From a virus, in IMG/VR virus record IMGVR_UViG_3300031227_000287, positions 1 to 28,965 of that record: 28,965 nt of DNA; one strand, given 5' to 3'. Under the pieces are notes generated by a model. That model saw nothing but the letters and a program-made list of their open reading frames with translations. It was not told the origin of the DNA and searched no databases. Of this stretch, positions 1,709 through 18,134 are shown in pieces; positions within the stretch are counted from its first letter, which is position 1, and the number at the start of each line of letters is the position of its first letter. Made by a program: the position numbers and the translations under genes.

Positions 1709-2325
1709 TGGGACGTCCAAGAGGTTCGAAGAATAAACCTAAAGGTAAACTAGGTAGACCTAAAGGGTCTAAAAATAAGGCTACTGATCCAGCTCCAGCT
1801 TTAACTCAAAAGAAAGTTGATTTTCAAAGAGGTAAAGGTAGTATAGATAAGATAAAGATACCATCTGATATATTTGATTTTGATTTATTATCTGGGCCAG
1901 CTCAAACTAAACTGAATAAGAAGTTACTACTAAAATCTATCATATCTTATTATGGAAATATAACTCGTGGTATAGACGCTATTGGATTAACTAGAGCGAC
2001 ACACTATTATTACATGAACAATGACCCATATTATGCTAAATACTTCAATGAGATAGATGAAATGATATTAGATTATGTTGAAGAGAAATCTAGAGATATA
2101 AGTTTGAGTGGTGATAAAGATATGATTAAGTTTATGTTAAAGACTAAAGGTAAAGATAGAGGTTACACTGAAAGAACTGAAACTGAAGTTAGAAATATTA
2201 CGCCAGTTACTATTCAAATAGTGGCTCCTGAACCCGGAGAATATGGTTCTTTAGATAAATTAGCGGAAGAATCAGAAGTAGATCCGTTCACAATAGAAGA
2301 TATAACAGATGAATCTGAGGATTAA
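1708..2325 (+). CDS. terS: Terminase small subunit with two AT-hooks
   Basis: The protein has 205 residues. Its N-terminus carries two AT-hook motifs, GRPRG (2-6) and GRPKG (16-20), each followed by SKNK; these bind the minor groove of AT-rich DNA. The central part (about 70-120) reads as the helical DNA-binding region of a terminase small subunit: a YYGNITRGIDAIGLTRATHY-type turn followed by acidic helices. The C-terminal half has the RDISLSGDKDMIKFMLKTKG pattern, which is common in small terminases, then an acidic tail. It would recognise the packaging site and hand DNA to the large subunit. Its start overlaps the preceding stop (TAATG at 1706-1710), and its end overlaps terL by 17 bp. The AT-hooks suit a genome of this base composition. 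Confidence 0.8.
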   Translation: MGRPRGSKNKPKGKLGRPKGSKNKATDPAPALTQKKVDFQRGKGSIDKIKIPSDIFDFDLLSGPAQTKLNKKLLLKSIISYYGNITRGIDAIGLTRATHYYYMNNDPYYAKYFNEIDEMILDYVEEKSRDISLSGDKDMIKFMLKTKGKDRGYTERTETEVRNITPVTIQIVAPEPGEYGSLDKLAEESEVDPFTIEDITDESED

Positions 2326-3622
2326 ACCACATCAAAAACAAATGGAGACATTAAATCTCCTGTTTGATGATACTACTAATTACGTACTTTACGGAGGTTC
2401 AAAATCTTGCGGTAAAACCAGATTATTAGTTTTATGGTCATTAATAATGTGTTTAAAATATCCTGGTTGTAGAGGCATCTGGGGTAGAGCACATATCCAA
2501 GGACTAAAGAGGTCAACCTTAAATACTTTCTTCGAGGTGTGTCGTGAATTAGGCTTAAAAAAGACATATGATTATAACTTTAATCCTATTGAGAATGTAA
2601 TTAGATTTGAGAATGGAAGTGAGATTTTATTGGTTCCATTATTTCAAAAACCTAGTGATATTGAATTTGTTGGATTAGGTTCTGTTGAAGCCACTTTTGC
2701 TTGTATTGATGAAGCTGGTGAAATCGGTTATGATGCTTATATTGCCTTAAGAAACACATTGAGATTTAGAACCCAAGAATTTGGTATAACACCTAAAATA
2801 TTAATTGTTTCTAACCCAACTAAAAACTGGTTATATGATGAGTTTTATAAACCTTGGAAAGATGGAACTTTACCATCTAATATGAAATATGTCCATACGA
2901 TTCCAACTGATAACTCGTTCAATGATCCATTATATCTAAAAGTGTTAAGCGAGATGGTAGGTAGTGATTATGAACGTTTATATCTAGGTAATTGGGATTA
3001 CGGAGATGACTTAAATGCGTTATTTAACTTCATTGATTTATCTGATGCTTATCATTTATCTAGATTAGGTGGTAGACCAAAGAAATATCTAACCATTGAT
3101 GTCGCCTTGGAAGGTGATGATGATACCTGTATTGTTGTATGGCACGACTTAACCATAAAGAAGATTATATTGGTTTCTATTGAAGATGGTCCTGAATTAG
3201 TTGATTATATAAAACAGGTAATGAAACAATATGATGTTAGAGCTAGTAATGTAATATATGATGCCATTGGAGTTGGTTCTGTTGGTTCATTCTTAAAAGG
3301 TACTGTTAAATTTAAGGCATCATTTGCTCCGATAGTTAATAAAGAATTTCAAGACTTAAAAGCTGAATGTTTTTATTTATTGGCTGAATATTTTAAGAGA
3401 AGTGAAATACTTATTGATGAACCTAAATATAGAGATAGATTAATAGGTGAGTTCCAAGCTTATAAGAGATATAAAGTAGACGACCCTAGAAAGAGAAGAA
3501 TTACGCCAAAAGTAGAAGTAAAGAGACAGATTAAACATTCTCCTGATATTGCTGATGCTATTGCTATGAGAATGTATTGGGAATTACAAGGTGATAAGCC
3601 TTTAAAAATGATTACATTATAA
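2309..3622 (+). CDS. terL: Terminase large subunit (ATPase and nuclease)
   Basis: This is the 437-residue DNA-packaging motor. The ATPase domain has a Walker A GGSKSCGKTR (29-38), a Walker B ending in ACIDEAGE with D134 and E135, and a coupling motif SNP (about 168-170). The RNase H-like nuclease domain follows, with acidic strands TIDVALEGDD (about 262-271), NVIYDAIG (about 313-320) and a final PDIADAIAMR (about 415-424), which give the usual catalytic aspartates. The length is normal for the family. The chosen start overlaps terS by 17 bp; another in-frame ATG at codon 12 still leaves Walker A intact. It ends in a TAATG overlap with the chaperone gene. The call is firm. Confidence 0.95.
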   Translation: MNLRIKPHQKQMETLNLLFDDTTNYVLYGGSKSCGKTRLLVLWSLIMCLKYPGCRGIWGRAHIQGLKRSTLNTFFEVCRELGLKKTYDYNFNPIENVIRFENGSEILLVPLFQKPSDIEFVGLGSVEATFACIDEAGEIGYDAYIALRNTLRFRTQEFGITPKILIVSNPTKNWLYDEFYKPWKDGTLPSNMKYVHTIPTDNSFNDPLYLKVLSEMVGSDYERLYLGNWDYGDDLNALFNFIDLSDAYHLSRLGGRPKKYLTIDVALEGDDDTCIVVWHDLTIKKIILVSIEDGPELVDYIKQVMKQYDVRASNVIYDAIGVGSVGSFLKGTVKFKASFAPIVNKEFQDLKAECFYLLAEYFKRSEILIDEPKYRDRLIGEFQAYKRYKVDDPRKRRITPKVEVKRQIKHSPDIADAIAMRMYWELQGDKPLKMITL

Positions 3623-4155
3623 TGAAGATATCCATCAAAGAATTACCAGAATTATCTATTAATAAATATAGAGATATACTAGAAATATTGAAAAATGATG
3701 AAGATGAAGTGACAAAATCTTATGAAGTCATATCATCATTAACGGATTTATCTTTAGATGAGTTGAAAAAGTATGATTATGATTCTATTCAATTATTATA
3801 TTCATATATTAATAATGTATTAAGTATACCAATAACTACTAAATATAGTCAATCTATTAAGGTAAAAGGACAAAGACTTTTCTTTAGAAAGGACTTAAAT
3901 AATATGAGTTTCGGTCAGTTCTTGGATTTATATAATCTAACTAAAGACCCTGACTCAATAATGAAGAACTTACATATCATAATGGCTATTATGTATCGAA
4001 AGTATAATAAGTATAATAGTGAAACTGTGATGAATATGGCACCTGTTTTAGCTGATGAGATGAATATCCATCAGGCATTAAATGCGTGTTTTTTTTTCTT
4101 GAATTTAAAAAAGAAATTATTAAGTCGAACCCTGGCATCCTTGGTAAAACAATGA
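3622..4155 (+). CDS. Tail assembly chaperone, short form (gpG-like)
   Basis: The protein has 177 residues and no catalytic motif. It has an acidic, helical N-terminus (ELPELSINKYRDIL; SLTDLSLDELKK) and a central LNNMSFGQFLDLYNL (about 93-107) followed by DPDSIMKNLHIIMAIMYR. This pattern is familiar to me from tail-assembly and baseplate chaperones of Bacteroidota phages, where NLHKILAILYR-like helices are usual. It would bind the tape measure protein during tail assembly. Its gene starts in a TAATG overlap with terL, 18 kb from the tape measure gene and on the other strand. Near its 3' end lie T9 (4089-4097) and an in-phase A_AAA_AAG (4107-4113), which could send some ribosomes into the -1 frame and yield a 250-residue fusion. 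Confidence 0.65.
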   Translation: MKISIKELPELSINKYRDILEILKNDEDEVTKSYEVISSLTDLSLDELKKYDYDSIQLLYSYINNVLSIPITTKYSQSIKVKGQRLFFRKDLNNMSFGQFLDLYNLTKDPDSIMKNLHIIMAIMYRKYNKYNSETVMNMAPVLADEMNIHQALNACFFFLNLKKKLLSRTLASLVKQ

Positions 4156-4373
4156 CCCCAGAAGAATCTAAGTTAATAAAGGAAGAGGACGAAGTTGATC
4201 AGGAATCAGCATTCAATCAAAAGTATGGATTATTAGGTACGTTATATTCATTAACGAATAAAGACATCTCAAAAGTAAATGATTTATTAGAATTAGGATT
4301 AATAGAAGTATTCAACTACTTATCTTGGTCAGTAGAGATGGACAATGTATTGATATGGAAAAATGAACAATAA
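4086..4373 (+). CDS. Tail assembly chaperone, -1 frame extension (gpT-like)
   Basis: This frame is open from 4059 to the stop at 4371-4373. Its C-terminal domain (QKYGLLGTLYSLTNKDISKV, then a stretch ending EVFNYLSW) matches the short W/Y-x-L-a-x-GDi-K-x-(V/L)-x(3)-EVLNxL pattern that follows tail chaperones in Bacteroidota phages. Two readings are possible. (a) A -1 frameshift at 4107-4113 joins 164 residues of the upstream frame to 86 residues of this one, giving 250 aa, as for lambda gpG/gpGT. (b) Independent initiation at ATG 4152, which overlaps the upstream TGA as ATGA, gives 73 aa. The GTG at 4086 is the least likely start. The gene ends 2 bp from the stop of the convergent minus-strand gene. 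Confidence 0.6.
   Translation: MFFFLEFKKEIIKSNPGILGKTMTPEESKLIKEEDEVDQESAFNQKYGLLGTLYSLTNKDISKVNDLLELGLIEVFNYLSWSVEMDNVLIWKNEQ
4107..4113 (+). promoter_or_regulatory. Candidate -1 ribosomal frameshift site (A_AAA_AAG)
   Basis: In the upstream frame the codons read TTA AAA AAG, so A_AAA_AAG sits in the exact phase needed for a tandem -1 slip. It lies 40 bases before the zero-frame stop and inside the open -1 window (4059-4373). A T_TTT_TTT heptamer (4089-4095), also in phase, lies just upstream. I see no strong stimulatory stem just 3'; GC-richer sequence lies at 4128-4142. Confidence 0.55.
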
Positions 4374-4828: not shown

Positions 4829-6415
4829 TTAGACACTTACAGTGAAGTTGTCTAAGTATATGTTCCAATTACTAGCTGTAGTAGGCTCAACTTTAAATTG
4901 TATTGTTACATAATCAAATACAGCATCATCAGCGGCTATACTAATAGTTTGTTGTGTATAACTTACAGGGACAGTTAAAGTTTCAAAAGCTGAACCTAAA
5001 CCTATATTAATAAAATTAACAGCAAAGTTACCAGTAAAGTTACCATCACTATTTAAGTAGAAAGATATATCGTTATCAACACCAGGAGTTATAGGTAGTT
5101 TAACTAATCCACCAATAGATGAACCATTATTATTAACAGAACCTCCAAAAATTCTTATGTTTGTTACACCACTATAAGGGTTACTAGCATCAGTTGTCAC
5201 ATTACCTCCTGAAGTATACTTAACAACACTACTTTGAGATTCATAATATGCCGACTGAGCCGGTGAATTAAAAGTTGGTGTTGGTAAAGAAGTTAAAGTA
5301 TCATCGTAATAAATTTCAACACCAGCATTATTTTGTATTGAAGATAAAGGTGTTCCAGAAAGTCCATTAATATAAATATCGGAACTATTCTTAAAATACA
5401 TAGATGAATTTAGTGTTAAATTATATGCCTTAAAACCAGTTACTTCCCATACCAATAATGGACATGCAGTTACAGACATATTTTCACAATATAATGACTT
5501 ACATCCTTTAAATATATCATAGTTTATAACATTAAAATCACAATAATAAAAACTATTTGGCCCATTACAATTATCCATTCCATGACCAAATAAATAATCG
5601 ATAGTTACACCACTCCAAACATTGTTTACAGCAACATATAACATAGATGTTTTAAGACTAGCTATATTACAATTAGTCACAGTACAACTATTTATATTAT
5701 AACCCCAATGGTAATCAGAACCAATAAAACTACAATTAGTAATAGTATTACCAACAGTATCACTGAACATATGTTTACCATTATGTCCATGACCAACAAA
5801 ACTATCATCTAAATTACAATTATCAAACTTAATTGCATAAAAGTTTAAGAACACAATTTTATTAATATGGTAATAATCATAATCACCAATTGGTATACCT
5901 AAAGCATTACCATCTAAATAACTATATTTATCTTGAGAAGTATAAGTAGCATCCCATCCACCTGTTATTTTAGTTCTATCAGATGTACTAAAACCATTTT
6001 TATTCATTAACATCTCAGCAGAAGCAGTACTCACATAAGTATTTAGTTTACTTGATCCAACAGTTTCAGTATCATAAGCATATCTATCACCACCCCAATA
6101 AGTAAATAGTGTGATTAGTGAACTTGTTATACTCGAAACTTCATAAATCTTTAATGGATCTCCAGTTTTAGTGATATAATCACCGACACTTATTTCACTA
6201 GTTAAATCAGTAATAGTTGTTATAGTATTACTACCTTTAACCCAGGCTAAATCTTCACTTAAAGCCGTCATGGCTATACCTAATACTTTAACTTCATCTC
6301 CTGAAGTCCATGAAATGGCACTAAAACCACCAAAATCTTTTTTAGGTGTACTTGTGGTTAATCCATCGTTTGCGTTATCTCCACTTACAAAATCTACATA
6401 ATATATTACAGCCAT
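4829..6415 (-). CDS. Tail spike: right-handed beta-helix with C-terminal binding domain
   Basis: The protein has 528 residues. The start YYVDFVSGDNANDGLTTSTP (5-24) is the classic entry to a pectate-lyase-like right-handed beta-helix. The middle (about 190-360) is rich in short Asn/Cys-containing coils such as FDNCNL, ITNCSF, VTNCNI and YYCDF, as expected for stacked helix turns with asparagine ladders. The C-terminal third (about 390-528) looks like a jelly-roll carbohydrate-binding domain (VDNDISFYLNSDG, then WNIYLDNFTVSV). It probably binds, and perhaps cleaves, host surface glycans. No catalytic residues can be assigned by eye. It is preceded by the LamG-like gene with a 9-bp gap. Confidence 0.75.
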   Translation of the reverse strand: MAVIYYVDFVSGDNANDGLTTSTPKKDFGGFSAISWTSGDEVKVLGIAMTALSEDLAWVKGSNTITTITDLTSEISVGDYITKTGDPLKIYEVSSITSSLITLFTYWGGDRYAYDTETVGSSKLNTYVSTASAEMLMNKNGFSTSDRTKITGGWDATYTSQDKYSYLDGNALGIPIGDYDYYHINKIVFLNFYAIKFDNCNLDDSFVGHGHNGKHMFSDTVGNTITNCSFIGSDYHWGYNINSCTVTNCNIASLKTSMLYVAVNNVWSGVTIDYLFGHGMDNCNGPNSFYYCDFNVINYDIFKGCKSLYCENMSVTACPLLVWEVTGFKAYNLTLNSSMYFKNSSDIYINGLSGTPLSSIQNNAGVEIYYDDTLTSLPTPTFNSPAQSAYYESQSSVVKYTSGGNVTTDASNPYSGVTNIRIFGGSVNNNGSSIGGLVKLPITPGVDNDISFYLNSDGNFTGNFAVNFINIGLGSAFETLTVPVSYTQQTISIAADDAVFDYVTIQFKVEPTTASNWNIYLDNFTVSV

Positions 6416-6424
6416 ATCTTTATT

Positions 6425-7324
6425 TTATATTTTTAGTGAAGTATAATATTCACTTATTTTAGTAGAATCCCATGTTTCATTTAATAAGAAACCTTCATCT
6501 ATATTACCTTGTAATTGTAATTGGTCTACTCCACTACCATCAGCGATACAACCAATTTGTACCCCATTTGCTGAAGTTGGTTTTTTCATATTAACAGTTT
6601 GAGTAGCCGTCAAAACACCGTTTAGATAAACTTTACCTTGATAAATTCCAGCAGTATCATTCTTATCAATTGTTATAATTACACTGGCCCATGTATTACC
6701 AGTTAATTGTCCACATGAAACACCACCAACGCCACCATAATTGAATATCATTGAACCATCCGTTCCTGGGTAAGGTAAATATATACCAAATCCATTAGAA
6801 TCATATGCTCTACCAATAGCCATTATACCTTGTTGTGATCCAACTGATGTTCCACCCCATTGTATTTTAGCACCAAAAGTTAAACCACTTTCACAATTTG
6901 TAATTGTTGAACCTTCTGTTCCAGTTAAACCTAAATCACCATCACTAAAAGGAGCAATAGATTTAGAATAATTAGCATCGTAATGATTAATCATTGTTAA
7001 ATATTGATTATAATCAATTGCATAAGCATTACTAGAGCCTATTACCATATCTCTACCATGAATAGACTTATCTAAACTATCTCCATTATAAGCCCAATAA
7101 CCTAAAGTAGTTAAGGCTGTCGGCAATATCGGTTGAGTAGGTGTTCCCCACTCATTATAAATATCTCCAGCTAAAAGTTGAAACTCTATTTCTGGTTCAC
7201 TTAAAACTTCCATTATTTCTCCTTGAGTTAACTCAAAATCCCACACCTGATATTCTACAACAACAGGAAGTGGAACCGGTATAACGTCTTCTACACCTAT
7301 ATAAACAAATCGTCTTCTACTCAT
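6425..7324 (-). CDS. LamG/concanavalin A-like receptor-binding protein
   Basis: The protein has 299 residues. A charged, proline-rich leader (MSRRRFVYIGVEDVIPVPLP) and a linker precede a LamG-type jelly roll (about 75-299). Typical marks are GYWAYNGDSLDKSIHGRD at its start, FGAKIQW, a WASVIITIDKN strand, the KVYLNGVLTATQ strand and the final GNIDEGFLLNETWDSTKISEYY. The last is the usual ending of concanavalin A-like phage domains (I-D-E-x-x-L/I-W-T-x-I-x-x-x-Y). It is likely a sugar-binding component of the tail tip. It starts 1 bp after the stop of the short fibre gene at 7326, so the two are probably translated together. Confidence 0.75.
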   Translation of the reverse strand: MSRRRFVYIGVEDVIPVPLPVVVEYQVWDFELTQGEIMEVLSEPEIEFQLLAGDIYNEWGTPTQPILPTALTTLGYWAYNGDSLDKSIHGRDMVIGSSNAYAIDYNQYLTMINHYDANYSKSIAPFSDGDLGLTGTEGSTITNCESGLTFGAKIQWGGTSVGSQQGIMAIGRAYDSNGFGIYLPYPGTDGSMIFNYGGVGGVSCGQLTGNTWASVIITIDKNDTAGIYQGKVYLNGVLTATQTVNMKKPTSANGVQIGCIADGSGVDQLQLQGNIDEGFLLNETWDSTKISEYYTSLKI

Positions 7325-7325
7325 C

Positions 7326-7874
7326 TTAAGCTCTTGTTATTTTGATACTTCCGTATAATATTTGATTAACTCCTGTTTCAACAATTAAAGTTAAAGTCTC
7401 ACCAACAGCAACCGAGTTAGCGGCTGAAGCAGTATTAGTACTTTCAGTTGTAGTAATAGATACACTATCTATTCCAGTTATTTCTGTCCCTTCAATAGCC
7501 AATGATAAAACTGTTGTTCCTGTTTCACCTTCACAGATTAAATTATCTACATCATAACCATACGTTGCTGATAAAGATAGTTTATAAGTTTCACCAGTTA
7601 CAGCATCTATTTGGAAATCTAATTGTTCTGTTTCCAAAGCAGTTATATTAGTAGTATTATTACTTATATCTACAGTTACACCTGAGTTATTAACCCAAAC
7701 CGAGCCATTGTAAGTTAAAGTATCACCATCAGCAGGACTAACTAATGTTACATCAGTTAAACCACCTAAAGTAGTTACACCGGGACTTGAGCCTCCGCCA
7801 CTAATCTTTAAGGCTTGATTAGTCTCATCATATACACTATGAAGTATTTTTGCTAAATTAAATTCATCTGACAT
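7326..7874 (-). CDS. Short tail fibre protein with conserved N-terminal anchor
   Basis: The protein has 182 residues. It begins with the anchor motif SDEFNLAKILHSVYDETNQ and ALKISGGGSS, which recurs twice in the 57-aa protein at 4376-4549. A phage-fibre segment LGGLTDVTLVSPADGDTLTY and NGSVWVN follows; L-x-D-V-x(6)-G-x-x-L-x-(Y/W) is widespread in tail fibres. A Ser/Thr-rich beta-sandwich-like C-terminal domain comes next (about 85-182). It probably forms a trimeric fibre or a connector for the LamG-like protein encoded 1 bp downstream. Confidence 0.7.
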   Translation of the reverse strand: MSDEFNLAKILHSVYDETNQALKISGGGSSPGVTTLGGLTDVTLVSPADGDTLTYNGSVWVNNSGVTVDISNNTTNITALETEQLDFQIDAVTGETYKLSLSATYGYDVDNLICEGETGTTVLSLAIEGTEITGIDSVSITTTESTNTASAANSVAVGETLTLIVETGVNQILYGSIKITRA

Positions 7875-7918
7875 ATTATTAGTCTTTATTTTTTATATTT
7901 TTACTGTTACTGCTTTTT

Positions 7919-9889
7919 TTAATAGATTAACCAATTAGTTCCATCACAGTAAATATTAACTGAAGAATAATCACCTGAGATTATTATATCTGTATCACCA
8001 TCTATTTTTTCTGAACCTTCAGTGTCAATTGTTATATTGTTTGTTAAAGCATTTCCAGCTCCATCTTTTATTATAATTGTTCTACCAGCAACTACTTGAG
8101 CTGTTGGTAAAGTAATTGTTATCTCACCACTAGTAGTATATATCACATTTAGAATATAATCACTTTCTAATAAATCATAAGTGGAAGCATTGATACTACT
8201 AACATTATTAAACATTGCTTCTGTAACGGTTAAATCACCATTTATCTTTACTAAATTATTATCGAACTCTCCATAAATTAACGGGTTATCAGTATTAGTT
8301 GAATCAATATAAAGTTTAGATGAACCAACTTCACTATAACCAGCATTATATCCTAAGAATACGTTAGAATCTCCGCTTAAATTATAACCAGCTCTATAAC
8401 CAATTACAACATTATTATCCGTTTCTAACTTACCATTACCAGCAGCATAAGAACCTAATAATGTGTTATAAGTTCCATCTGTATTTCTACCAGCATTGTA
8501 ACCTAATAAAGCATTATTTGAACCAGCAACTATATCTTGTCCAGCATAGTTACCAACAGCGGTATTATTTGAACTTGAAACAGATGATGCTAAAGCATTT
8601 GCTCCAATAGCAGCGTTGTTTCCATTAGTTGTATGAATCGCCATTGCGTTATAACCAACAGCAGTGTTTTGAGCACCAGATATGTTAGCCTTTAATGTGT
8701 TAGCACCAATTGCTGTGTTAAAGTTGGCACCCACTAAAGAATTCAATGCTTCATAACCTAAAGCAGTATTTAATGTTCCAGTAACGGCGATTCCACCTTT
8801 ACCAATTAGAACGTTAGAATTATAATAAGCAGCCATTGATTTTCCATCAAAGAAGAATTTAGTATCATCTGCGAAAACACCAACACCATCTGATAGTTGA
8901 ATAGCACCAGCTAAACCTGAAGCTGTTCCACCAGCTGAACCACCTAAAGTAATCCAACCTGCTGATGTTAAACCCTTAAAGGCTCCATCATATAACATTG
9001 TACCGGGAGTTGTTGTTACACCATTATGTAAAATTACATTAGGAACATAAACCGAATTATCTTCGGCAGCAGTTACACCAGTCATACTAATCATAGTAGT
9101 GTTTGTATATCCACTAATTATATTTTGTTGTCCACCTATTATGTTAGAATAATCACCTGATTCTATGTAGTTATAAAAACCAGAAACAAGGTTAAATTTA
9201 GTATTTAATAATTCTGTTTGTTTACCTACTTGTAAAACGTGTTGAGTATTTGTGTTATCATTGTTTTCACCAGCAATTAAACTCCAGTAAGTATCCTCTG
9301 TTGTATGAGACTGACCAAACATAGCACCATAATAAAAACCAACTGATGTAAATCCCCAACCAATTAAACTAGATGAGTTAACTACATTTAATACACTAGT
9401 AGGTCCGCCTATAATACTATAACTGACACCAGTTATTGTAGCACTATAAGTACTTATCATAGAATTACTTGGGTTGTATATTGTGTTATAAGAACCAACA
9501 ATTAGAGAGTTAGAACCTCCAAAAACTTGATTAGATTCACCACCTATTAAAGAATAAGCTGATGTATTCGTGTTGTTCTTTCCAAGCATTATATTACACT
9601 CATTAGAGTTAACATTATTTTTACCAGCTAAGAAGTTATAACCATTAACAACAGTTGAATCTGGATCCAACTTCATAGAGTTATCTGAGTTTATATTAGC
9701 CATTTTATATACCAAAGTATTACCACCATAGTAGATTACATCGCTATAAGTATCAACAACTAATTCACCTGAGTAGATGTTACTTGAAGTCCAAGAACCA
9801 TCAGTATGGTCACTAGAAGGACCGATAGAAGGAGTGAAACCATTTAAGGTATTCACTTTTTGTTCCATTCTTTTATTTTCTGTTACCAT
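7919..9889 (-). CDS. Long tail fibre with YadA-head-like beta-roll repeats
   Basis: The protein has 656 residues. The N-terminal half (about 60-300) is rich in N/S/G strand repeats (SLIGGESNQ, MLGKNNTN, MFGQSHTT). Residues about 358-540 hold clear 14-residue-type repeats of trimeric autotransporter heads: NTALGYEAL, NTAIGANTL, NTAVGYNAM, NNAAIGANAL, NTAVGNYAG, NALLGYNAG, NVVIGYRAG, NVFLGYNAG. The last ~90 residues are a compact beta domain (ITITLPTAQ, RTIIIKDGAG, DGTNWLIY) found at many phage fibre ends. No S74 intramolecular chaperone is present. It likely forms a trimeric adhesin-like fibre for host binding. ATG at 9889 and a second ATG seven codons later sit in a 15-bp tandem duplication, so the true start is uncertain. 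Confidence 0.85.
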   Translation of the reverse strand: MVTENKRMEQKVNTLNGFTPSIGPSSDHTDGSWTSSNIYSGELVVDTYSDVIYYGGNTLVYKMANINSDNSMKLDPDSTVVNGYNFLAGKNNVNSNECNIMLGKNNTNTSAYSLIGGESNQVFGGSNSLIVGSYNTIYNPSNSMISTYSATITGVSYSIIGGPTSVLNVVNSSSLIGWGFTSVGFYYGAMFGQSHTTEDTYWSLIAGENNDNTNTQHVLQVGKQTELLNTKFNLVSGFYNYIESGDYSNIIGGQQNIISGYTNTTMISMTGVTAAEDNSVYVPNVILHNGVTTTPGTMLYDGAFKGLTSAGWITLGGSAGGTASGLAGAIQLSDGVGVFADDTKFFFDGKSMAAYYNSNVLIGKGGIAVTGTLNTALGYEALNSLVGANFNTAIGANTLKANISGAQNTAVGYNAMAIHTTNGNNAAIGANALASSVSSSNNTAVGNYAGQDIVAGSNNALLGYNAGRNTDGTYNTLLGSYAAGNGKLETDNNVVIGYRAGYNLSGDSNVFLGYNAGYSEVGSSKLYIDSTNTDNPLIYGEFDNNLVKINGDLTVTEAMFNNVSSINASTYDLLESDYILNVIYTTSGEITITLPTAQVVAGRTIIIKDGAGNALTNNITIDTEGSEKIDGDTDIIISGDYSSVNIYCDGTNWLIY

Positions 9890-9912
9890 TCTTTTATTTT
9901 ATTTTTAACTAT

Positions 9913-9920
9913 CAAAATTA
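9913..9920 (-). promoter_or_regulatory. Candidate Bacteroidota-type promoter (-7 box TAATTTTG)
   Basis: Read on the minus strand, TAATTTTG matches TAnnTTTG and lies 24 bases before the ATG of the YadA-like fibre gene, in the 58-bp gap after the 808-aa gene. No clear -33 TTTG box was found. It may start a separate transcript for the fibre cassette. Confidence 0.35.
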
Positions 9921-9947
9921 TATATAAAAAACTTTGAGAATTATATC

Positions 9948-12374
9948 TTAATTCGCATTCACTCCTCCACTTAATAATGGAGCAGACATTGAAACGTCAT
10001 CCTCACCAGAGTATATAAGATTAGCAGTTATATTAACAGTATCTATGCCACCAGAAATCATATCTCCACCAGTTATAATAGGTGGTTTATAATCTTGACT
10101 AATATTATAATAAGTTCCATCAATAATTTTAATAAATTCAACTTCGGTATAAAGTCTTGATGGATTATAATCTTTAATCTCATTTATTAAGAACCAACCA
10201 GAACCTACATCATCACCCCAATCAATATAGATTTTTTCATTTAATATTAATCCATTAATATCTTTCTCAGTTAATCTAAACTTACCTGTTACAATTCTAG
10301 TATTGGTTGAAAGGTTATTGTTCATTTCACCTAAGTAGTAACTATATAAGTTAGTGTTATCGTTACTAGTTAGAGTTGTACCAGTTGAAGTATAACTATG
10401 TTTCTCATATTCATTGAAATCGTGGCTCCATGTTAAATCTATCTCACCTTGGTCACCCCAATAATCAAATGGAATAGCAGACACATAATAATAAATATTT
10501 GAATTAGTATCAAAAGTAAAGTAATTAGTTAAAACTAAAGCTGGGTTTAAGTATTCTGACTTATATTTCATAAGAACTCTAAAACTATACTTTCCACTTC
10601 TAGTTACAGGACCTACTTCACCACCAGATGAACCTTCAATTGTAGCCCAATCTATTTTTGATACTGGGTGTTTATCTCCGTTAATATAAGTATAAGTTTC
10701 ATTTCTTTCATCATTAGATTCATTAATAAAAGGTGTTTGTACGAAAGCTAATTTTTGAGTACGTTCTTTTTTAGAAATAACATTACCAGTTGGAATCTCT
10801 TTTGAACCATACTCTTTACCGAAATTCTCTTTCCACCACTCATTATGGTAGTCAGTCGAATCTTTGAACTCATATCTATAAAGGTAAAAATCAAAAGGGT
10901 TTAACTCAATATTAACTTCATCTTCCCTAAGAAGTTTATCCGTCCATACAAGACTTGAACCACCAATATAAAAATCATCTCTTTGTTTGAAGATATAATT
11001 CTTTGGTTGTAAAACATCTACATAAAGATAAAGATTAAACATCTTCATTACCTCTTTTATTAAATCGCTTTGTTGTACTCCTTTAGCTATATAGTCATTA
11101 ACTTTTAAGTTATTTAATAAACCAAAAATAGGTTTTTCTATATTCAATTCATTAAGATATAAGTTCATATAATCTATGGTACAATAAGTATACCTCTTTT
11201 CATCATATTCATTGCCTTTCATGTATATCCATATAGATATATAGTCACCTTTTTCTAAAGTAATAGTTCGTTCTGGTATATTTTGTACAATACCATATTG
11301 AGTTTCGTTAGGTAATAAATGAATTGTCTCTAATGATACTTGAGTACCAGAAGCATTATTAACCATAATTTGAACTAAGTAATTAAAGTTTTTTGGGTAG
11401 TGACCCTCAGATACTAAATATTCTAAACTATAAGTATACTTACCACTTTTTTCTATAAAGTAAACAGATGGTACAGCAGTACCAGTTGTATTTATAACAG
11501 CATTACTATAAGGATCAAACCAATCTACATTAAACTTAACTGGATATCTATAAGAATCTCCGTGATAAAAATAAGGGTTAGGCATCATTACGGCTAAAGC
11601 ATCGGCATAATTTTTATAAAGAACATATGAAGTTTGATTATCTTTATAATAATCCAATATTCGTTGTTCAGATTCAGTTATTGTTAAATCGTCATTAGCA
11701 AATGGTATCAACATATTCTTAAACATATCACTATCCAATATATCAGACTCATAAGTATAACCATATGTTTCAAAGATTTTATCAAATATACTTTTAATGA
11801 AAACTGATGGCTTAAAATAATTACTCATATCATCAGTATCCATATTATCAAAAGCGTCATTTAAAGTATATTCTGAAGTGATTCCGGTTAAGAAAACACC
11901 ATTATCTGTTTGAGCATATATCCAAGGTTTAGTATCTGAATCCTGAGTTGTAGTTTTTACAGCACTTAGATTATAAATGTGGTCTGTTGACACATCCCAT
12001 TGTAAATCAGTTAACTTAGAATTACCCATATCATTAAAGATAGACTTAGATAAGTAAAGTAAATTAGTATCAAAAAACATAGTGCCATTAACGTTTATGA
12101 TATTACGTAATCTAATAAAACCACGGAACAACTCGGTGTTCTCTTCATATAAAACACATTCAAAAAGTTTATTTTGTAAATTATCTTCCGTATTCATATT
12201 ATGAAGATAACCAAAGATGGCTTTATTAGTATTAGTAAATGGTAGTTTATAAGGTTTAGAATAGCTAGACTTACGTTTATAGAATTGTTTAATATCATTC
12301 AATGTAAATGTTAAATCGATTCCATCTTCTCCTAATATATCAGCTACCTGATTCTCGATTAGTAATTCTAGCAT
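9948..12374 (-). CDS. Large tail-tip/baseplate protein, 808 aa
   Basis: This is an 808-residue soluble structural protein. The N-terminus (IENQVADILGEDGIDLTFTL, then KPYKLPFTNTNKAIFGYL) and LFRGFIRLRNI (about 85-95) follow a pattern I know from large tail or baseplate hub proteins of Bacteroidota phages. They probably form a beta-barrel like that of tail hub proteins. The middle holds several beta-rich domains; the C-terminus ends with short Gly/Ile-rich strands (GGDMISGGIDTVNI). It directly follows the 442-aa tail protein with a TAATG overlap at 12374 and precedes the fibres. That position fits a hub or fibre-attachment protein. No enzyme motif is visible. Confidence 0.55.
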   Translation of the reverse strand: MLELLIENQVADILGEDGIDLTFTLNDIKQFYKRKSSYSKPYKLPFTNTNKAIFGYLHNMNTEDNLQNKLFECVLYEENTELFRGFIRLRNIINVNGTMFFDTNLLYLSKSIFNDMGNSKLTDLQWDVSTDHIYNLSAVKTTTQDSDTKPWIYAQTDNGVFLTGITSEYTLNDAFDNMDTDDMSNYFKPSVFIKSIFDKIFETYGYTYESDILDSDMFKNMLIPFANDDLTITESEQRILDYYKDNQTSYVLYKNYADALAVMMPNPYFYHGDSYRYPVKFNVDWFDPYSNAVINTTGTAVPSVYFIEKSGKYTYSLEYLVSEGHYPKNFNYLVQIMVNNASGTQVSLETIHLLPNETQYGIVQNIPERTITLEKGDYISIWIYMKGNEYDEKRYTYCTIDYMNLYLNELNIEKPIFGLLNNLKVNDYIAKGVQQSDLIKEVMKMFNLYLYVDVLQPKNYIFKQRDDFYIGGSSLVWTDKLLREDEVNIELNPFDFYLYRYEFKDSTDYHNEWWKENFGKEYGSKEIPTGNVISKKERTQKLAFVQTPFINESNDERNETYTYINGDKHPVSKIDWATIEGSSGGEVGPVTRSGKYSFRVLMKYKSEYLNPALVLTNYFTFDTNSNIYYYVSAIPFDYWGDQGEIDLTWSHDFNEYEKHSYTSTGTTLTSNDNTNLYSYYLGEMNNNLSTNTRIVTGKFRLTEKDINGLILNEKIYIDWGDDVGSGWFLINEIKDYNPSRLYTEVEFIKIIDGTYYNISQDYKPPIITGGDMISGGIDTVNITANLIYSGEDDVSMSAPLLSGGVNAN

Positions 12375-13702
12375 TATAAGTTTCTAATTTTTTCGGTATT
12401 ATAAGTAAAGTTAAATTGGAAATTAGTTAATGGATCAATAGTCTTAACAGGTATCTTGATGTTACTATCTAATGATATAATTGGTAACATCTGATTATCT
12501 TTTATTAAAACTAAATATTCACTTGATATCATACTCTTAAACAATTCAGCTAAATCACTTGATACTAATCCAGTTGACACCTTGAAGTTCTGGTTATAAT
12601 CAGCATGGAAAGTTTGCTTACTTTGAGTATATCTTGACTTATCTACAAAACCAGTTGATAGATTAATATCATCCTGATTCTTTGTGAATAATTGTTTACT
12701 ATTAGAAAACGTTTCATCCAACTTAGCCTTAAAGTTAAAGCCTTCAACACCACCAAAACGATTAGTCCACATGATATTCATCTCTTCATAGATTTCAGTA
12801 CACGGTTCTGTTACTTCAACTCTATAATCTATACTAGTTGGAGTACCTAAAGCATCATTTGATGACCAAATATCAAAATATTTTGTATTATCATCTAACA
12901 TATCCACTGAAATAGTTAAACCATCTACATGCCAAGACCCATCATAGTATAATTCGGTACTATAAAACGACTCATTGTTCAAAGTTGAATAGGAAAGTAT
13001 AACATCTATACGTGATTTCTCGTAATCTCCAACATCTGGGTTAGCAATATAGCCTCTGAAAGCAGTTATTACTTGACTATCAAACTTAGCTTGAGGTGTT
13101 TTAAGTTGAACTTCAAAGAATATGTAATCATTTTCAACATCCATTGTTAATCCTGTTACTAATAATGGGTCATTTGGGTAGTTAGAACCATTTAACATAG
13201 ATAAAGCTGTGTAAGATGTATCAGTAATATATCTTTTTGATTCATAATCAGTTAAAAACTTATCACTTGCTTCAGCTAATTCATATAATGAATAGTTAAA
13301 CACTGGTTTAGTATAATCTTCTCTACCTTTTAATAAGATAAAGAACGGATTAAACACTCCATCTCCATAACCGCCACTGATATATTCTTGCGCACTTATT
13401 GTACCACGAACATATGAACCTTCATTGTGATAAAACATATTAGTTAATTCGAATTCTGTCTCAAAACTATAATAACTATATGGATTAAACTTTAAGAAAG
13501 CATTCTGATTTGGAAATATCTTTAGTATAGCAATCTCATCAGCACTAACTACATCCCAATTATCATCTATTAGATATGGTATAACCTCATATTGGAAACT
13601 AGGTGCCGAAGTTACTTGGTCACTTAATGCCGTAACAGTTGTTCCATTAAAAGAATTTAATAGTTGAACTTCTTCAATCTTTTGATACTGTGTAATCGCC
13701 AT
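12374..13702 (-). CDS. Distal tail/baseplate structural protein, 442 aa
   Basis: This is a beta-rich protein with no signal or membrane segment. The segment IMWTNRFGGVEGFNFKAKLD (about 311-330) is a recurrent feature of Bacteroidota phage tail proteins (x-W-x-N-R-x-G-G-x-(E/D)-x-F-x-F). The C-terminus (SSEYLVLIKDNQMLPIISLD, then FNFTYNTEKIRN) is typical of the same group. I infer a distal-tail (Dit-like) or baseplate protein. Its start overlaps the small membrane protein gene by 29 bp, and its stop overlaps the next start as TAATG, so it is tightly coupled to the hub-like gene. Confidence 0.55.
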   Translation of the reverse strand: MAITQYQKIEEVQLLNSFNGTTVTALSDQVTSAPSFQYEVIPYLIDDNWDVVSADEIAILKIFPNQNAFLKFNPYSYYSFETEFELTNMFYHNEGSYVRGTISAQEYISGGYGDGVFNPFFILLKGREDYTKPVFNYSLYELAEASDKFLTDYESKRYITDTSYTALSMLNGSNYPNDPLLVTGLTMDVENDYIFFEVQLKTPQAKFDSQVITAFRGYIANPDVGDYEKSRIDVILSYSTLNNESFYSTELYYDGSWHVDGLTISVDMLDDNTKYFDIWSSNDALGTPTSIDYRVEVTEPCTEIYEEMNIMWTNRFGGVEGFNFKAKLDETFSNSKQLFTKNQDDINLSTGFVDKSRYTQSKQTFHADYNQNFKVSTGLVSSDLAELFKSMISSEYLVLIKDNQMLPIISLDSNIKIPVKTIDPLTNFQFNFTYNTEKIRNL

Positions 13703-13880
13703 TGGATTTTTCTATTTTTTTTCTATCGTTATATTGTTTACTACCAATCAAAGCAGTAGCAGCCGGAATAGCCATCAATATCACTGACGTATCTTTTAAT
13801 ATTAGTGTTAAGATGAAACCAATTATTATAATAACAACGGCTATAATCTTACTGAACGTTATCTCCAATTTTAGTTTCAT
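13674..13880 (-). CDS. Small membrane protein with two TM helices
   Basis: The protein has 68 residues. Two hydrophobic stretches (about 8-27, FSKIIAVVIIIIGFILTLIL, and about 31-46, SVILMAIPAATALIGS) are joined by KDT, and a charged tail follows (KQYNDRKKIEKSNG). Size and topology are those of small phage holin-like proteins. Its place in the tail cluster, just after a 24-residue membrane peptide, could suit a holin, but no lysin is seen. It overlaps the next gene by 29 bp. The plus-strand frame at 13702-13887 is a shadow of this gene. Confidence 0.6.
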   Translation of the reverse strand: MKLKLEITFSKIIAVVIIIIGFILTLILKDTSVILMAIPAATALIGSKQYNDRKKIEKSNGDYTVSKD

Positions 13881-13883
13881 AAT

Positions 13884-13958
13884 CTAATCATCATTTTTTA
13901 TATAAATGTACAGCCAAATCAAGGCTATCACACATACAACAATCGCTATAATCTCCAT
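13884..13958 (-). CDS. 24-aa single-TM micropeptide
   Basis: This short frame starts at ATG 13958, which shares its A with the upstream TAA (TAATG). It encodes MEIIAIVVCVIALIWLYIYI followed by KNDD, and stops at TAG 13884-13886, 3 bp before the next start. It is one hydrophobic helix of about 19 residues with an acidic first residue and a charged end, so it would insert in the inner membrane. The flanking genes leave exactly this space and the stop-start coupling is the same as at other junctions here, which argues for a real gene. Lysis regulation or an accessory of the neighbouring 2-TM protein are guesses. Confidence 0.5.
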   Translation of the reverse strand: MEIIAIVVCVIALIWLYIYIKNDD

Positions 13959-14407
13959 TAGTCTTCAAATGAAGTTTTTATATACAATGATATATCAGCA
14001 GCCGAAGCTTCTTCCAACTTAGCTAAAGCCTCATCATCGTATGTGTCCCAAAACGGGTCAGTAAAATCAGTAGACGGTAGTCCAAATAACCCAATCTTTC
14101 TTGCTATTGGGAAAGCAGCTTTAGGTGGTATACCTTTTCTATCACACCATTTAGTTATTACATCTAAAGGTGGTTGTTTACCAGGTCCTCTACCATTATT
14201 AACCCACTTATAATAATCTTCCATTATAAACTCTAATCGAATATCTTGAACATCTTCAACTACTCTATAATTAAGTGTACTAATGAAATTGGAATTACCT
14301 TTGCCCTTTTCAATAAGTATCTTCTTCATTGCTTCCAACACCTCATAACCATATAAGTCTATAGCCTTTAATGTTTGAGCATAATCATCTGTTGTCATTT
14401 CACTCAT
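13958..14407 (-). CDS. HK97 gp10-like head-tail/tail-completion protein
   Basis: The protein has 149 residues from ATG 14407, which forms TAATG with the upstream stop; an ATG five codons earlier at 14422 also exists. The central segment YYKWVNNGRGPGKQPPLDVI, then KWCDRKGIPPKAAFPIARKI, is the hallmark of the gp10-like neck family (Y-x-x-(W/F)-(V/I)-x-x-G-R-x-P-G-x-x-P-P). The C-terminus is acidic and helical. It likely sits at the head-tail interface and completes the tail end. Neighbours on both sides are neck or tail genes. Confidence 0.7.
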   Translation of the reverse strand: MSEMTTDDYAQTLKAIDLYGYEVLEAMKKILIEKGKGNSNFISTLNYRVVEDVQDIRLEFIMEDYYKWVNNGRGPGKQPPLDVITKWCDRKGIPPKAAFPIARKIGLFGLPSTDFTDPFWDTYDDEALAKLEEASAADISLYIKTSFED

Positions 14408-14838
14408 TATGGTGTGATACAATTATTTATTTGACGAGGTGTATCAATAGTAATATCAACCCACCAGCCAGCAGTTAAATCATCAAACTTCTCTTCGAAA
14501 TTATTTAACACAAAGTTATTGTTAATAAAGTAATCTTCATTAGTTGAAATCAATTCATTTAGTATATCACTAATAACCTGAGTACCATCACTCAACACAT
14601 CGTTAAGATTATTTAATGAAGCATCTACAATATCAAGATAGAATAGACGGAACTTATATGAGTTTTTATCTAACGTCATAGTAATAGGAATTGGTTGTAG
14701 AATTATGTGAGCATATTTCAAATCTAATTCAACTAAGTTATAAGGTTGTCCAAAAAAGAAATGTCCATCACCTAATTGTCCGTGATTTATAACAGTTGTT
14801 TCAAAGAAATCTATAATATTATTATAAGTTTGTGACAT
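14407..14838 (-). CDS. Probable tail terminator/neck protein, 143 aa
   Basis: This is a soluble alpha/beta protein. The opening NNIIDFFETTVINHGQLGDG and a FFFGQPYNL stretch, a beta strand IILQPIPITM (about 45-54), and the ending AGWWVDITIDTPRQINNCI follow a pattern common in Bacteroidota phages at the position between the head-tail adaptor and gp10-like genes. From that position I infer a tail terminator or completion protein. No motif proves it. It lies 14 bp after the DUF1360-like gene and ends in a TAATG overlap with the gp10-like gene. Confidence 0.5.
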   Translation of the reverse strand: MSQTYNNIIDFFETTVINHGQLGDGHFFFGQPYNLVELDLKYAHIILQPIPITMTLDKNSYKFRLFYLDIVDASLNNLNDVLSDGTQVISDILNELISTNEDYFINNNFVLNNFEEKFDDLTAGWWVDITIDTPRQINNCITP

Positions 14839-14852
14839 AATGTAAGTATTTT

Positions 14853-15107
14853 TTAGTAAGCCAATATTCGACTTAAGATATTAATAGAACCTAAAGCTAA
14901 TAACCCACTCAATACAAAGAAAGGTGTTACTGTCCAAATGAAATGTAACCCCATTCCAATCCAAAAAGATAAACACGTAGGACAATGAATAAAATCATGT
15001 AAGATTCCAACCTTAAACCAACCTCTAATCTCTTCGGTAATTCTACTTTGTGATATGACATAAGATATAGCAAAAGTTACCAATATAAATATAATCAAAT
15101 CTATCAT
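14853..15107 (-). CDS. DUF1360-like small membrane protein
   Basis: The protein has 84 residues. Hydrophobic helices lie at about 2-18, 46-58 and 61-82. Between the first two is a soluble loop with HCPTCLSFWIGM (41-52), the CxxC-x-(S/G)-F-W signature of the DUF1360 family found in phage and Bacillus proteins. The two cysteines could bind a metal. The gene starts in a TAATG overlap with the adaptor gene, inside the head-tail gene string. The role is unknown; a small membrane protein at this site may affect assembly or superinfection. Confidence 0.65.
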   Translation of the reverse strand: MIDLIIFILVTFAISYVISQSRITEEIRGWFKVGILHDFIHCPTCLSFWIGMGLHFIWTVTPFFVLSGLLALGSINILSRILAY

Positions 15108-15643
15108 TATCTTCTTCTATCATGTTTTGAAGTTAAATCCATACCAACATTATATCTAGAATTTGTACTTGGTCTCATCTCATCTTCTGTGTTTGAAGTA
15201 TACTCTGGGTATATATCGCTGTTATAACAAAGATGGTCAGTTAATCTCTTAGCATAGAAAGCTGCTTTGTTATTAAAACCATTAATAAGATATTCTCTTT
15301 CTTCGGAACCAATCACAGTTGTATTATCACTATCTTGTGTTCCAATATTCTTATTATTAAACTTCATAATCAATCTCGGAGTTACTCCAGCTAAAGTGTA
15401 ATAAACTAAAGTCTTAACAACAAATGTCTCAACCAATTCATTATAAACTGTATCACTTGATAAAGTATCACCAGATATCTTATTAAGAATAGATTCATAT
15501 AAGTCTGTTCCAAGAATTTCTTGAAGTTGTTGTTCTTGAGCTTCTATGATTCCAATATCAATTAGGTCGTTATCTACATTACTGTTGATAAAACCCGAAT
15601 ATGTTTTAACGAAGTCTGGACTAATTATATAGACTAAATTCAT
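15107..15643 (-). CDS. Head-tail connector/adaptor protein
   Basis: The protein has 178 residues and is mostly helical. The N-terminal ISPDFVKTYSGFINSNVDND, followed by EAQEQQLQEILGTDLYESIL, is the usual start of Bacteroidota head-tail adaptor proteins (gp6-like helical bundle). A central VKTLVYYTLAGVTPRLIMKF helix and an Arg-rich tail (KHDRRR) follow. The gene lies directly after the portal, which is the standard place for the first connector ring. It is coupled by TAATG to the DUF1360-like gene. The plain A/T leader before ATG 15643 has no Shine-Dalgarno site. Confidence 0.6.
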   Translation of the reverse strand: MNLVYIISPDFVKTYSGFINSNVDNDLIDIGIIEAQEQQLQEILGTDLYESILNKISGDTLSSDTVYNELVETFVVKTLVYYTLAGVTPRLIMKFNNKNIGTQDSDNTTVIGSEEREYLINGFNNKAAFYAKRLTDHLCYNSDIYPEYTSNTEDEMRPSTNSRYNVGMDLTSKHDRRR

Positions 15644-15661
15644 TTTCTTTTTTTATTTTTT

Positions 15662-17065
15662 TTATAAGTAAACTACCTCACATCGACATCCCTTGTGGGC
15701 AGGAGTTCCCATCAATTTATAACCTAATCTCTTAAACGGCTTTCCAACAGGTACGGTTTGGTCGTTTAATCCAGCGCAGAAAGGACAAGGACCAACATCA
15801 CTTTGAACTGTTTTCCATTGTTTTAATTTCTTACCAGCAAAATCTACCTTTTCTTTCTCACAAGCTAAATGTAAATCTACATCACTAAGTTGGTCTATCT
15901 CATGAATATGTTCTTCTTCAGCATTAACATCTTCTTCATCAGTACCTAAAGTATCTAACACAGTACCTTCAATAGTGAGTTCTTGAAGACCCATCAACTT
16001 ACCTAGTTGATTTAATGTGTCTAATTGTTGTTTACGTTTCGGTAATATTCTAGTAGCATAAAAGATAGCGTGACTATCAGCTAACTCAGAACCTCCACCT
16101 AACTTACCAGCTATAGGTATACCAACCAATAATGGATTAGTTACACCGTGACCAGTTATAATACCTAATTCGGCATCTTCTTTCAATGATAAAAATTTAA
16201 TATGATTACCATCATCACCTAACGGAGATATGATAGGAGCGTCATCTTTATCTCCAACGAAGTTCATAATAGCTTTACCAGCATTATATGTACCAGTATA
16301 CTTGTCTGTAAACTGGGCTCTAACTTCATTCAACTTCTCATCAGAAGTATCATTAGTAATCATTGTAATAATCTTACCCGGCTCAAAGTTATTATCTAAA
16401 TTATTACCGTGATAGTCAGAAACTTTCGTGGCAATAATGATAGAACGTAATCCTTGAATATAATCAGGGAAGGTATAGTAGTTTAATCCCGGCTCATAGT
16501 CTCCAACTACTACCAGTATCTCTCTCTTTTCTTGTGTTGTACCAAATCTTGGAATAAGAATCGGCTTATACGCTTGTTGTCTATATCTTTTCCAGTCTTT
16601 AGAAAAGTAATAATGATCAACCACACCCATTTCATTCTCAGTACCCCATAAAACATTCAAAGCAGGCACATGGCTAATGGCTATCGGTTGAGTATGTTCA
16701 TTATTCCATGTTACTTCAATAGCATACATACCAAATATGGTATTATCTTTAGAAATTCTACTGAATAACTGATGTAAACTATATAAAGGATTAGGTTTTT
16801 GTATGAATAAATCGGTAGCTGGGTCATTTGTTTCTTCAAAGTTAGAGCCAGCAATCATTAAAGTCTTATTTTGAACTATGGTTCCATGTAATGAAGAGTT
16901 TCTTGTTAACTCCATTAACTCTATACCATATTCATTGGTAGTTCTACCGTAAGGTATCCAATTTCTATTGATAGTACTATTGAAACTAGTTTGAAACGTA
17001 TTCTCAGATTTTGAGATTAACTCATCAAAAGTCTTTAAGTTAAGTTTGGTTACTTTATCTTTCAT
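15662..17065 (-). CDS. Portal protein with MuF-like C-terminal zinc motif
   Basis: The protein has 467 residues. The body (about 30-370) has portal features: a NWIPYGRTTNEYG start, SSLHGTIVQNKTLMIAG, a Pro/aromatic segment FIQKPNPLYSLHQLFSRISK, and a helical stem region with GITGHGVTNPLLVGIP. An acidic linker (about 372-395) follows. The last 43 residues hold CPFC (427-430) and PAHKGCRC (455-462), the Cys/Cys/His/Cys signature seen at the end of Mu gpF-type head morphogenesis domains. I therefore read it as a portal fused to a truncated MuF-like tail. It starts in a TAATG overlap with the 125-aa gene. It would form the dodecameric DNA gate of the capsid. Confidence 0.8.
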   Translation of the reverse strand: MKDKVTKLNLKTFDELISKSENTFQTSFNSTINRNWIPYGRTTNEYGIELMELTRNSSLHGTIVQNKTLMIAGSNFEETNDPATDLFIQKPNPLYSLHQLFSRISKDNTIFGMYAIEVTWNNEHTQPIAISHVPALNVLWGTENEMGVVDHYYFSKDWKRYRQQAYKPILIPRFGTTQEKREILVVVGDYEPGLNYYTFPDYIQGLRSIIIATKVSDYHGNNLDNNFEPGKIITMITNDTSDEKLNEVRAQFTDKYTGTYNAGKAIMNFVGDKDDAPIISPLGDDGNHIKFLSLKEDAELGIITGHGVTNPLLVGIPIAGKLGGGSELADSHAIFYATRILPKRKQQLDTLNQLGKLMGLQELTIEGTVLDTLGTDEEDVNAEEEHIHEIDQLSDVDLHLACEKEKVDFAGKKLKQWKTVQSDVGPCPFCAGLNDQTVPVGKPFKRLGYKLMGTPAHKGCRCEVVYL

Positions 17066-17442
17066 TATTTACGGTATATTTTTTTAGTTGTATTAACAGT
17101 GTTCTTATATTTAGTTATCGGTATATTAGGATCAGTATGATAAAATAACTTGCCTTGTTCAATCACATCTAAATCATCTATGTTCAACGATATAATCGGA
17201 AGTAGTTTTTCATACACTTCATAATCAGTAATACCAGCTTGAGTTAAATCGAAAGTTGATGTACCAGAATTAACAACCCAAGCAAACTCATCAGCTCTGT
17301 CGGTTGTTTCTACAACTGTGTCGGTAAATATAACATCACCTTCCATTTGTTTAATGCAGAAGATAAACCCATATAAGTCTGAAGTAAGTTTTTCAGTAAG
17401 TGTTAAATAGATTTCGTTTTCACCTGTTGTTAAATTAATCAT
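17065..17442 (-). CDS. Small structural protein upstream of the portal gene, 125 aa
   Basis: This is a beta-rich soluble protein of 125 residues. It starts MINLTTGENEIYLTLTEKLT, then LYGFIFCIKQ, a pattern I have seen in small proteins beside portal genes in Bacteroidota phages. The middle has YEVYEKLLPIISLNIDDLD and the C-terminus is basic (NTTKKIYRK). I infer a head or tail structural or accessory protein; the exact role is unknown. It is the first gene after the strong terminator at 17494-17523, so it probably has its own promoter or depends on read-through. It ends in a TAATG overlap with the portal gene. Confidence 0.5.
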   Translation of the reverse strand: MINLTTGENEIYLTLTEKLTSDLYGFIFCIKQMEGDVIFTDTVVETTDRADEFAWVVNSGTSTFDLTQAGITDYEVYEKLLPIISLNIDDLDVIEQGKLFYHTDPNIPITKYKNTVNTTKKIYRK

Positions 17443-17493
17443 CCACTTATGGTTTTATTTTTATATATAAAAATTGTCCGATTAATTCCATAA

Positions 17494-17523
17494 CAAAAAA
17501 ACCCACTAATAATTAGTGGGTTT
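17494..17523 (-). terminator. Rho-independent terminator after the tail tube gene
   Basis: An 11-bp perfect stem (17499-17509 with 17513-17523, AAACCCACTAA / TTAGTGGGTTT) and a 3-base loop are followed on the minus strand by seven T (17494-17500 on the plus strand is A7). It sits 25 bp after the stop of the tail tube gene and separates the capsid/tube genes from the portal genes. Confidence 0.85.
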
Positions 17524-17547
17524 ATAAGTTTTTATTACTAAAAGATA

Positions 17548-18078
17548 TTAAATGAAAGCTTCAAAGACAGTCTTATCTAAAATGAAAGGAGCTAAGTCAC
17601 TTTCTTGACCTAACAATGTTACGTCATAGATATTACCTTCACCAAGAGCAGCGCCAGTAGCGTCATTCATTACTTCAGGAGTCATACCATTATCGATAGC
17701 AACCATTCGGTACTTACCGTTGAAATCTTCAATAATAGCAACAGTCAAAGACTGAACTAAATATTTCATTTCGTTTCTTTTATCTTTATCTTGTTTCGGA
17801 AATCTCATTACTAATCTTTGGTTATAACCGAAAGATGCGTTAGTCACGTCAATAACAGCTTCTTCCGAGAAATTAGCAGTTTGTTTAGTCGACTCATATT
17901 TATAGAAAATAGTTCCGCCAGATATAGCAGTAGTTAAGCCACTAATTACACCATCAGCATCGTATTCAATCTCATCAGCATCTACGTTAGATAAATTAGT
18001 AATCCAAACCGATTTTAAACCGGGTACAGAAGCGGCATCACAGCCAAGCAATATTCCGGAATTAGTTAAACAGGCCAT
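17548..18078 (-). CDS. Probable major tail tube protein
   Basis: The protein has 176 residues. The start MACLTNSGILLGCDAASVPG and KSVWITNLSNVD, and later FYKYESTKQTANFSEEAVID, then SFGYNQRLVMRF and IIEDFNGKYRMVAIDNG, follow the usual pattern of tail tube proteins of Bacteroidota siphophages (C-x(2)-x-G-x-x-x-G-C near the N-terminus, then a G-x-x-Y-x-Q strand). The protein is beta-rich with no membrane segment. It lies directly after the major capsid gene and before a strong terminator, as expected for an abundant protein. A head decoration role is a weaker alternative. Confidence 0.6.
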   Translation of the reverse strand: MACLTNSGILLGCDAASVPGLKSVWITNLSNVDADEIEYDADGVISGLTTAISGGTIFYKYESTKQTANFSEEAVIDVTNASFGYNQRLVMRFPKQDKDKRNEMKYLVQSLTVAIIEDFNGKYRMVAIDNGMTPEVMNDATGAALGEGNIYDVTLLGQESDLAPFILDKTVFEAFI

Positions 18079-18103
18079 ACGTATTTATATTATTTTTTAA
18101 TAA

Positions 18104-18125: not shown

Positions 18126-18134
18126 ATATATTGT

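Follow-up and report, generated by a model that had tools for sequence, protein, structure and literature searches.

How the two overlapping halves of a gene pair lying directly downstream of a terminase large-subunit gene may come to be made as one protein is the question raised by the window, a 28,965-nucleotide stretch of viral DNA (IMG/VR record IMGVR_UViG_3300031227_000287). The overlap itself is real. A zero-frame open reading frame (3622-4155, plus strand) encodes a 177-residue, gpG-like N-terminal chaperone part, homologous in 169 loci, and a second frame, displaced by -1, is open from 4059 to 4373 on the same strand; upstream, terL (2309-3622, plus strand) is recognised by phrog_2 (E 4.7e-33) and Pfam Terminase_3 (E 1.3e-11). 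An earlier, sequence-only reading of the pair had proposed a programmed -1 frame change at the heptamer A_AAA_AAG (4107-4113), naming T_TTT_TTT (4089-4095) only as an extra. Both heptamers lie where that reading placed them and in zero-frame phase, and T_TTT_TTT forms the start of a run of nine T's (T9, 4089-4097; zero-frame phase T_TTT_TTT_TT). The full run had gone unlisted there, and so had a further in-phase heptamer, U_UUA_AAA at 4104-4110. The most probable answer, with a probability of roughly 0.7, is transcriptional slippage on this run, by which one extra U in the mRNA would give a 250-residue fusion beside the 177-residue short form.

Relatives were gathered by stepwise profile searches, to which prophages in bacterial genomes and the cultured phages P12024L and P12024S were added. 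Because the search patterns lay in the N-terminal half and rested on protein similarity, the sample is unbiased towards any slip site. It comprises 169 loci with both halves and 149 distinct junctions. Clustering 168 of these loci at 80% identity gave 87 clusters, and the members include prophages in Bacteroidota genomes as well as the cultured Nonlabens phages (P12024L/S). The window's own proteins have few close relatives: tblastn searches with them and with the fusion of one relative (L002) against cultured phages gave no match, and the pair itself drew only chance-level matches from Pfam and PHROG. A Flagellimonas member used as query did retrieve P12024L/S, and among 33 family members, 30 matched phrog_32199 and 15 matched phrog_38404. 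A draw of 395 genomes from the phylum contained no member besides the query's own genome, and 397 genomes drawn from the family supplied two further clear members, both with T9 (L116 and L117), as well as one weak match (L118) in which the pair is unconfirmed. At the terL-relative loci of phage 11b, phi10:1, Versailles, P12002L and BS-TP3, the family is absent in the stretches examined.

The relation between the two halves does not vary within this sample. Each of the 169 loci has its downstream half in the -1 frame and a T9 or T10 run at the junction. Counted by cluster (n = 87), the runs are T9 in phase 1 (72), T10 in phase 1 (8), T10 in phase 0 (4), T9 in phase 2 (2) and T10 in phase 2 (1); one locus, L003, adds T9 in phase 0, and no run shorter than nine occurs in any of the three reading phases. 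Alignment of relatives for the heptamer and its phase had been suggested as a check on the original proposal, and it turned out to favour the other site: A_AAA_AAG is absent at this place from other relatives, while T9/T10 is conserved in three phases. The gpT-like C-terminal part (-1 frame, 4095-4373) supports the same placement. Its alignment in 34 sequences begins at the run and opens with Leu-x-Phe-Arg/Lys immediately after it, the Phe being invariant. In the window this Phe is encoded by TTT at 4104-4106, upstream of the A run, so that slippage there would leave it out of the product, and the frame change is accordingly assigned to the T run. A -1 slip computed for T9 gives the 250-residue length that had been claimed for the fusion. 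The junction peptide expected from it is ACFFFLEFKKEIIK and not LNLKKEIIK; the product would read FFFLEFK where a slip at the A site would give FFFLNLK. What comparison of the relatives establishes is where the frame changes and in which direction, that the run has at least nine T's and that, in nearly all of them, an independent start is lacking. A programmed -1 shift that would join the two halves of a chaperone-like pair is thus very strongly supported, and this part of the original proposal stands at a different site.

Several other accounts of the overlap can be weighed against this pattern. Ribosomal slippage at A_AAA_AAG, alone or besides the T run, draws on a heptamer that is in phase and at which shifting in E. 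coli is far more frequent than at U_UUU_UUU (PMC5009743), but that heptamer is missing at this place in other relatives and its use would deprive the product of the invariant Phe, which makes this account very unlikely. Translation of the second half as a separate protein, either by stop-start coupling at ATGA (4152-4155), where the zero-frame stop overlaps a possible -1-frame ATG, or from the GTG at 4086, is harder still to credit. The ATGA overlap, formerly regarded as the main rival, does exist in the window, and a -1-frame ATG lying no more than 20 nt from the stop of the zero frame is seen in 19 of the 87 clusters; the conserved -1 sequence nonetheless starts at the run, upstream of that ATG, and a start near the stop would in most relatives leave a short tail only (median 26 residues past the zero-frame stop). 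Moreover, the -1 frame has no ATG or GTG before the end of the run in 85 of 87 clusters, and in nine it opens no more than two codons from the run. The window is one of the two exceptions, owing to GTG 4086, and its conserved -1 residues still begin at the run. Coupling is accordingly not the conserved mechanism. Finally, a homopolymer is prone to sequencing errors, and the pair might be read as an error or a decayed gene whose true DNA is in a single frame; this has a negligible chance of being correct, given that the -1 relation and T9/T10 recur in 149 distinct junctions, from bacterial genomes as well as from cultured phages, that contig L001 is identical to the window here, and that the two halves share a frame in no locus. 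The last of these observations also led to the rejection of phase variation through changes in the length of the genomic run.

The zero frame is also constrained beyond the run, for about eight codons, in which positions 19, 25 and 28, corresponding to -1-frame third positions, are nearly invariant, and of 64 sites for the Arg after the run 62 use AGG, in genes where AGA outnumbers AGG about fourfold. This implies that the short form continues past the run and is conserved for a few residues. The +1 frame is closed early in the 87 clusters, after 3-10 codons, and in the window by an immediate TGA (4100-4102), so that an mRNA with one U fewer would encode 159 residues; being confounded by dual coding (Phe-Arg/Lys and Leu), the early stop is not independent support for slippage.

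The remaining issue is which enzyme slips. A T9 run contains U_UUU_UUU in any phase, and phase therefore cannot decide between ribosome and polymerase, while length can. A ribosomal heptamer needs only seven T's. What is conserved at the junctions is a run of nine or more, within which U_UUU_UUU is always present; where the codon before Phe-Phe holds fewer T's (TGT in the window, AGG in L003, GGT in L117), the extra T's are found on the 3' side. A T>C change that would be silent in both frames and leave U_UUU_UUC was observed in none of 76 clusters (T9 phase 1 and T10 phase 0), the change being silent in both frames when the -1 codon encodes Leu, which holds for nearly all. TTC makes up 25.8% of Phe codons in these genes, which puts the probability of finding none at 1.5e-10 if the clusters are independent, which they are not fully. 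In E. coli tetramer data U_UUU_UUC is not weaker than U_UUU_UUU (PMC4066793). As a control, conserved Phe columns elsewhere use TTC in 2 of 24 to 13 of 30 sequences, the exception being the dual-coding Phe just after the run, and conserved Leu columns elsewhere carry CTN.

Two further counts bear on run length. An IMG/VR scan for TTTTTTTCTANNNTTTARG (T7-C-TA-N3-TTTARG), which required only seven T's, returned 120 loci, 78 of them confirmed chaperone junctions; T10 preceded the C in all 78, and T7 or T8 in none. A companion T9 scan yields runs of at least nine by construction and was not counted as length evidence. In 353 kb of coding DNA from the relatives, with the junction masked, T7 occurred 26 times, T8 twice and T9 or longer not at all, as against 87 of 87 clusters at the junction. 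Some of the run may owe its conservation to the hydrophobic residues that it encodes. A stretch of roughly nine or more A's or T's at the junction regardless of phase, here T9/T10 in three phases, is a hallmark of transcriptional slippage genes, in which the length of the run varies among the mRNAs and not in the DNA, and efficient in vivo slippage by bacterial RNA polymerase has been documented at runs of nine A or T (PMC5009743; PMC1088944).

Folding of the 87 clusters revealed no excess of RNA structure either upstream or downstream of the site (mean z downstream +0.15 over 60 nt and +0.27 over 90 nt, for pseudoknot-free folds). Downstream stimulatory structure is common in ribosomal -1 frameshift genes and is not required. 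Bacteroidia ribosomes are reported not to recognise Shine-Dalgarno sequences (PMC9976891), which removes one known stimulator of ribosomal shifting.

Lambda-type ribosomal -1 frameshifting at the in-phase U_UUU_UUU of the T run, proceeding without a stimulatory structure, is less likely but the main rival, and both mechanisms could occur. The heptamer is in phase in every phase and length class, and in E. coli the U_UUU_UUY motifs rank with the efficient ones (PMC4066793). For their chaperones, tailed phages are said to rely on ribosomal shifts, and some of these shifts also lack stimulators (PMC5009743). The direction is -1 in all loci, a full conservation that speaks for the ribosome and against slippage, whose direction tends, though not by definition, to vary between orthologues: in the GeneTack survey, confirmed slippage genes do not always keep direction, whereas ribosomal ones do (PMC3711429). 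Some AT-rich genomes, in addition, seem to suppress slippage (PMC1088944). What ribosomal slippage on the T run leaves unexplained is the minimum of nine in all phases, the want of any doubly silent T>C in the 76 clusters and the exclusive use of T10 among the 78 junctions where seven T's would have been permitted, to which the lack of structure is added. The run-length evidence, the absence of T9 or longer elsewhere in coding DNA, the lack of excess structure and the documented slippage at nine-letter runs together favour transcriptional slippage. It is also rather probable, if somewhat less so, that a widespread Bacteroidota siphophage lineage has replaced the ribosomal chaperone frameshift by programmed RNA-polymerase slippage on T9/T10, the ratio of short form to fusion being set in the mRNA by the polymerase.

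Briefly, under transcriptional slippage most mRNAs would be faithful copies that yield the 177-residue short form, and RNA polymerase, engaged on T9 through an rU:dA hybrid, would sometimes add one extra U. Normal translation of the U-added mRNA would then run into the -1 frame and produce the 250-residue fusion with its C-terminal domain, and translation of mRNAs with one U fewer or two more would soon end, at a stop a few codons on. If lambda is a guide, the short forms would be many and the fusions few, and together they would cover the tape measure and bring in the tail tube protein.

Known systems resemble parts of this scheme. As predicted for the window, lambda gpG/gpGT and the HK97 chaperones comprise a short protein and a -1-frame fusion made from one gene of a long-tailed phage. 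Lambda had been invoked as the precedent; the event there is ribosomal, while the conservation seen here fits RNA-polymerase slippage better. The window further differs from lambda and HK97 in that no sequence relation was detected, the run has at least nine T's, and the gene follows terL on the strand opposite to the tape measure. In dnaX of Thermus thermophilus, as proposed for the window, a nine-letter A/T homopolymer within coding sequence leads to two products (PMC5009743; PMC1088944), but the gene is unrelated and slippage there shortens the product, whereas the slipped reading predicted for the window is a longer fusion into a new frame. A parallel in outcome is spa13 of Shigella type III secretion, an assembly protein made longer at its C-terminus by slippage (PMC5009743), in a different system, host group and protein family. 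A literature search for transcriptional slippage combined with tail assembly chaperone or phage tail, with subscription journals mostly outside its reach, found no such description, and the main review treats tail chaperones as ribosomal shifts (PMC5009743). In Cellulophaga phage phi10:1 (L016, 23864-24572), the genes for the tail protein and the tape measure flank an open reading frame that ends at 24247 and, across A8 (24237-24244), overlaps the +1-frame gp086; this is possibly another slippage-type chaperone pair.

Chaperones of the G/GT type bind the tape measure with their N part and the tail tube protein with their C part, and their gene usually, not always, lies between the tail tube and tape measure genes. 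The window departs from that placement: the pair follows terL on the plus strand, and the tape measure protein, its expected binding partner, is encoded on the minus strand (20440-22476; phrog_3336, E 1.6e-13), both as located in the sequence-only reading. The position after terL, odd as it may seem, is common to the relatives whose upstream gene was identified, being found by Pfam in P12024L, L026 and L002, and a Walker-A-like motif is present in the upstream open reading frame of 29 of the 46 clusters in which that frame has at least 250 codons. In the window, terL and the pair (2309-4373, plus strand) stand opposite to portal, capsid, tail and tape measure genes (4829-22476, minus strand), and their transcript must therefore differ from that of the presumed partners.

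Structural comparison bears on the functional assignment. An AlphaFold model of the N part (residues 1-155, pLDDT 78.6) retrieved in a fold search the predicted protein of P12024S together with 28 further viral proteins (E <= 0.001). Its best solved match, the HK97 tail assembly chaperone 2ob9, is weak (Z 3.7 over 63 residues within 1-69, rmsd 3.3) and below the level of kinship, and in a second-look alignment no family but the HK97 chaperone stood out. The C model (pLDDT 70) had no match in the fold search, and profiles against PDB sequences returned nothing useful. Combined with the genome type, in which terminase, portal and tape measure are all found in the window, and with the short/fusion architecture, the weak HK97 match makes it likely that the locus is the tail assembly chaperone pair of a Bacteroidota siphophage.

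If transcriptional slippage is indeed at work, the same fixed mix of short and fused chaperone would be reachable through transcription, as for dnaX in Thermus, and a length-constrained T run would serve as a hallmark for annotating genes now deposited as separate hypothetical proteins. Genes 40/41 of P12024L (L112, 3995-4689) and 38/39 of P12024S (L113, 3995-4689) are deposited in this manner. These genes, like phrog_32199 and phrog_38404, share with the window the T9, the -1 relation and the place after terL, but their deposits carry no annotated frameshift; the T9 run suggests that each pair is one recoded gene. Polymerase slippage in Bacteroidota would moreover be testable directly in these cultured phages and their host. 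The slippage model predicts that activity follows run length and not phase, and the ribosomal model that a run broken as TTTTTTTCT, which is silent and keeps the heptamer, stays active; TTTTTTTC, a broken run retaining U_UUU_UUC in phase, would tell one from the other.

Some other genes of the window merit mention. On the minus strand, 7919-9889 encodes a 656-residue protein whose repeated NTAIGANTL/AVGYNAM-like motifs resemble, by eye only, the head repeats of trimeric adhesins; it may be a tail fibre or a decoration protein. The portal-like protein at 15662-17065 (minus strand) also matches head-morphogenesis and protease-type profiles in its C-terminus (about 412-466), which suggests a fused domain. 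The DUF3987-containing protein at 24061-25851 (plus strand; Pfam E 2.4e-43) is perhaps a replication protein.
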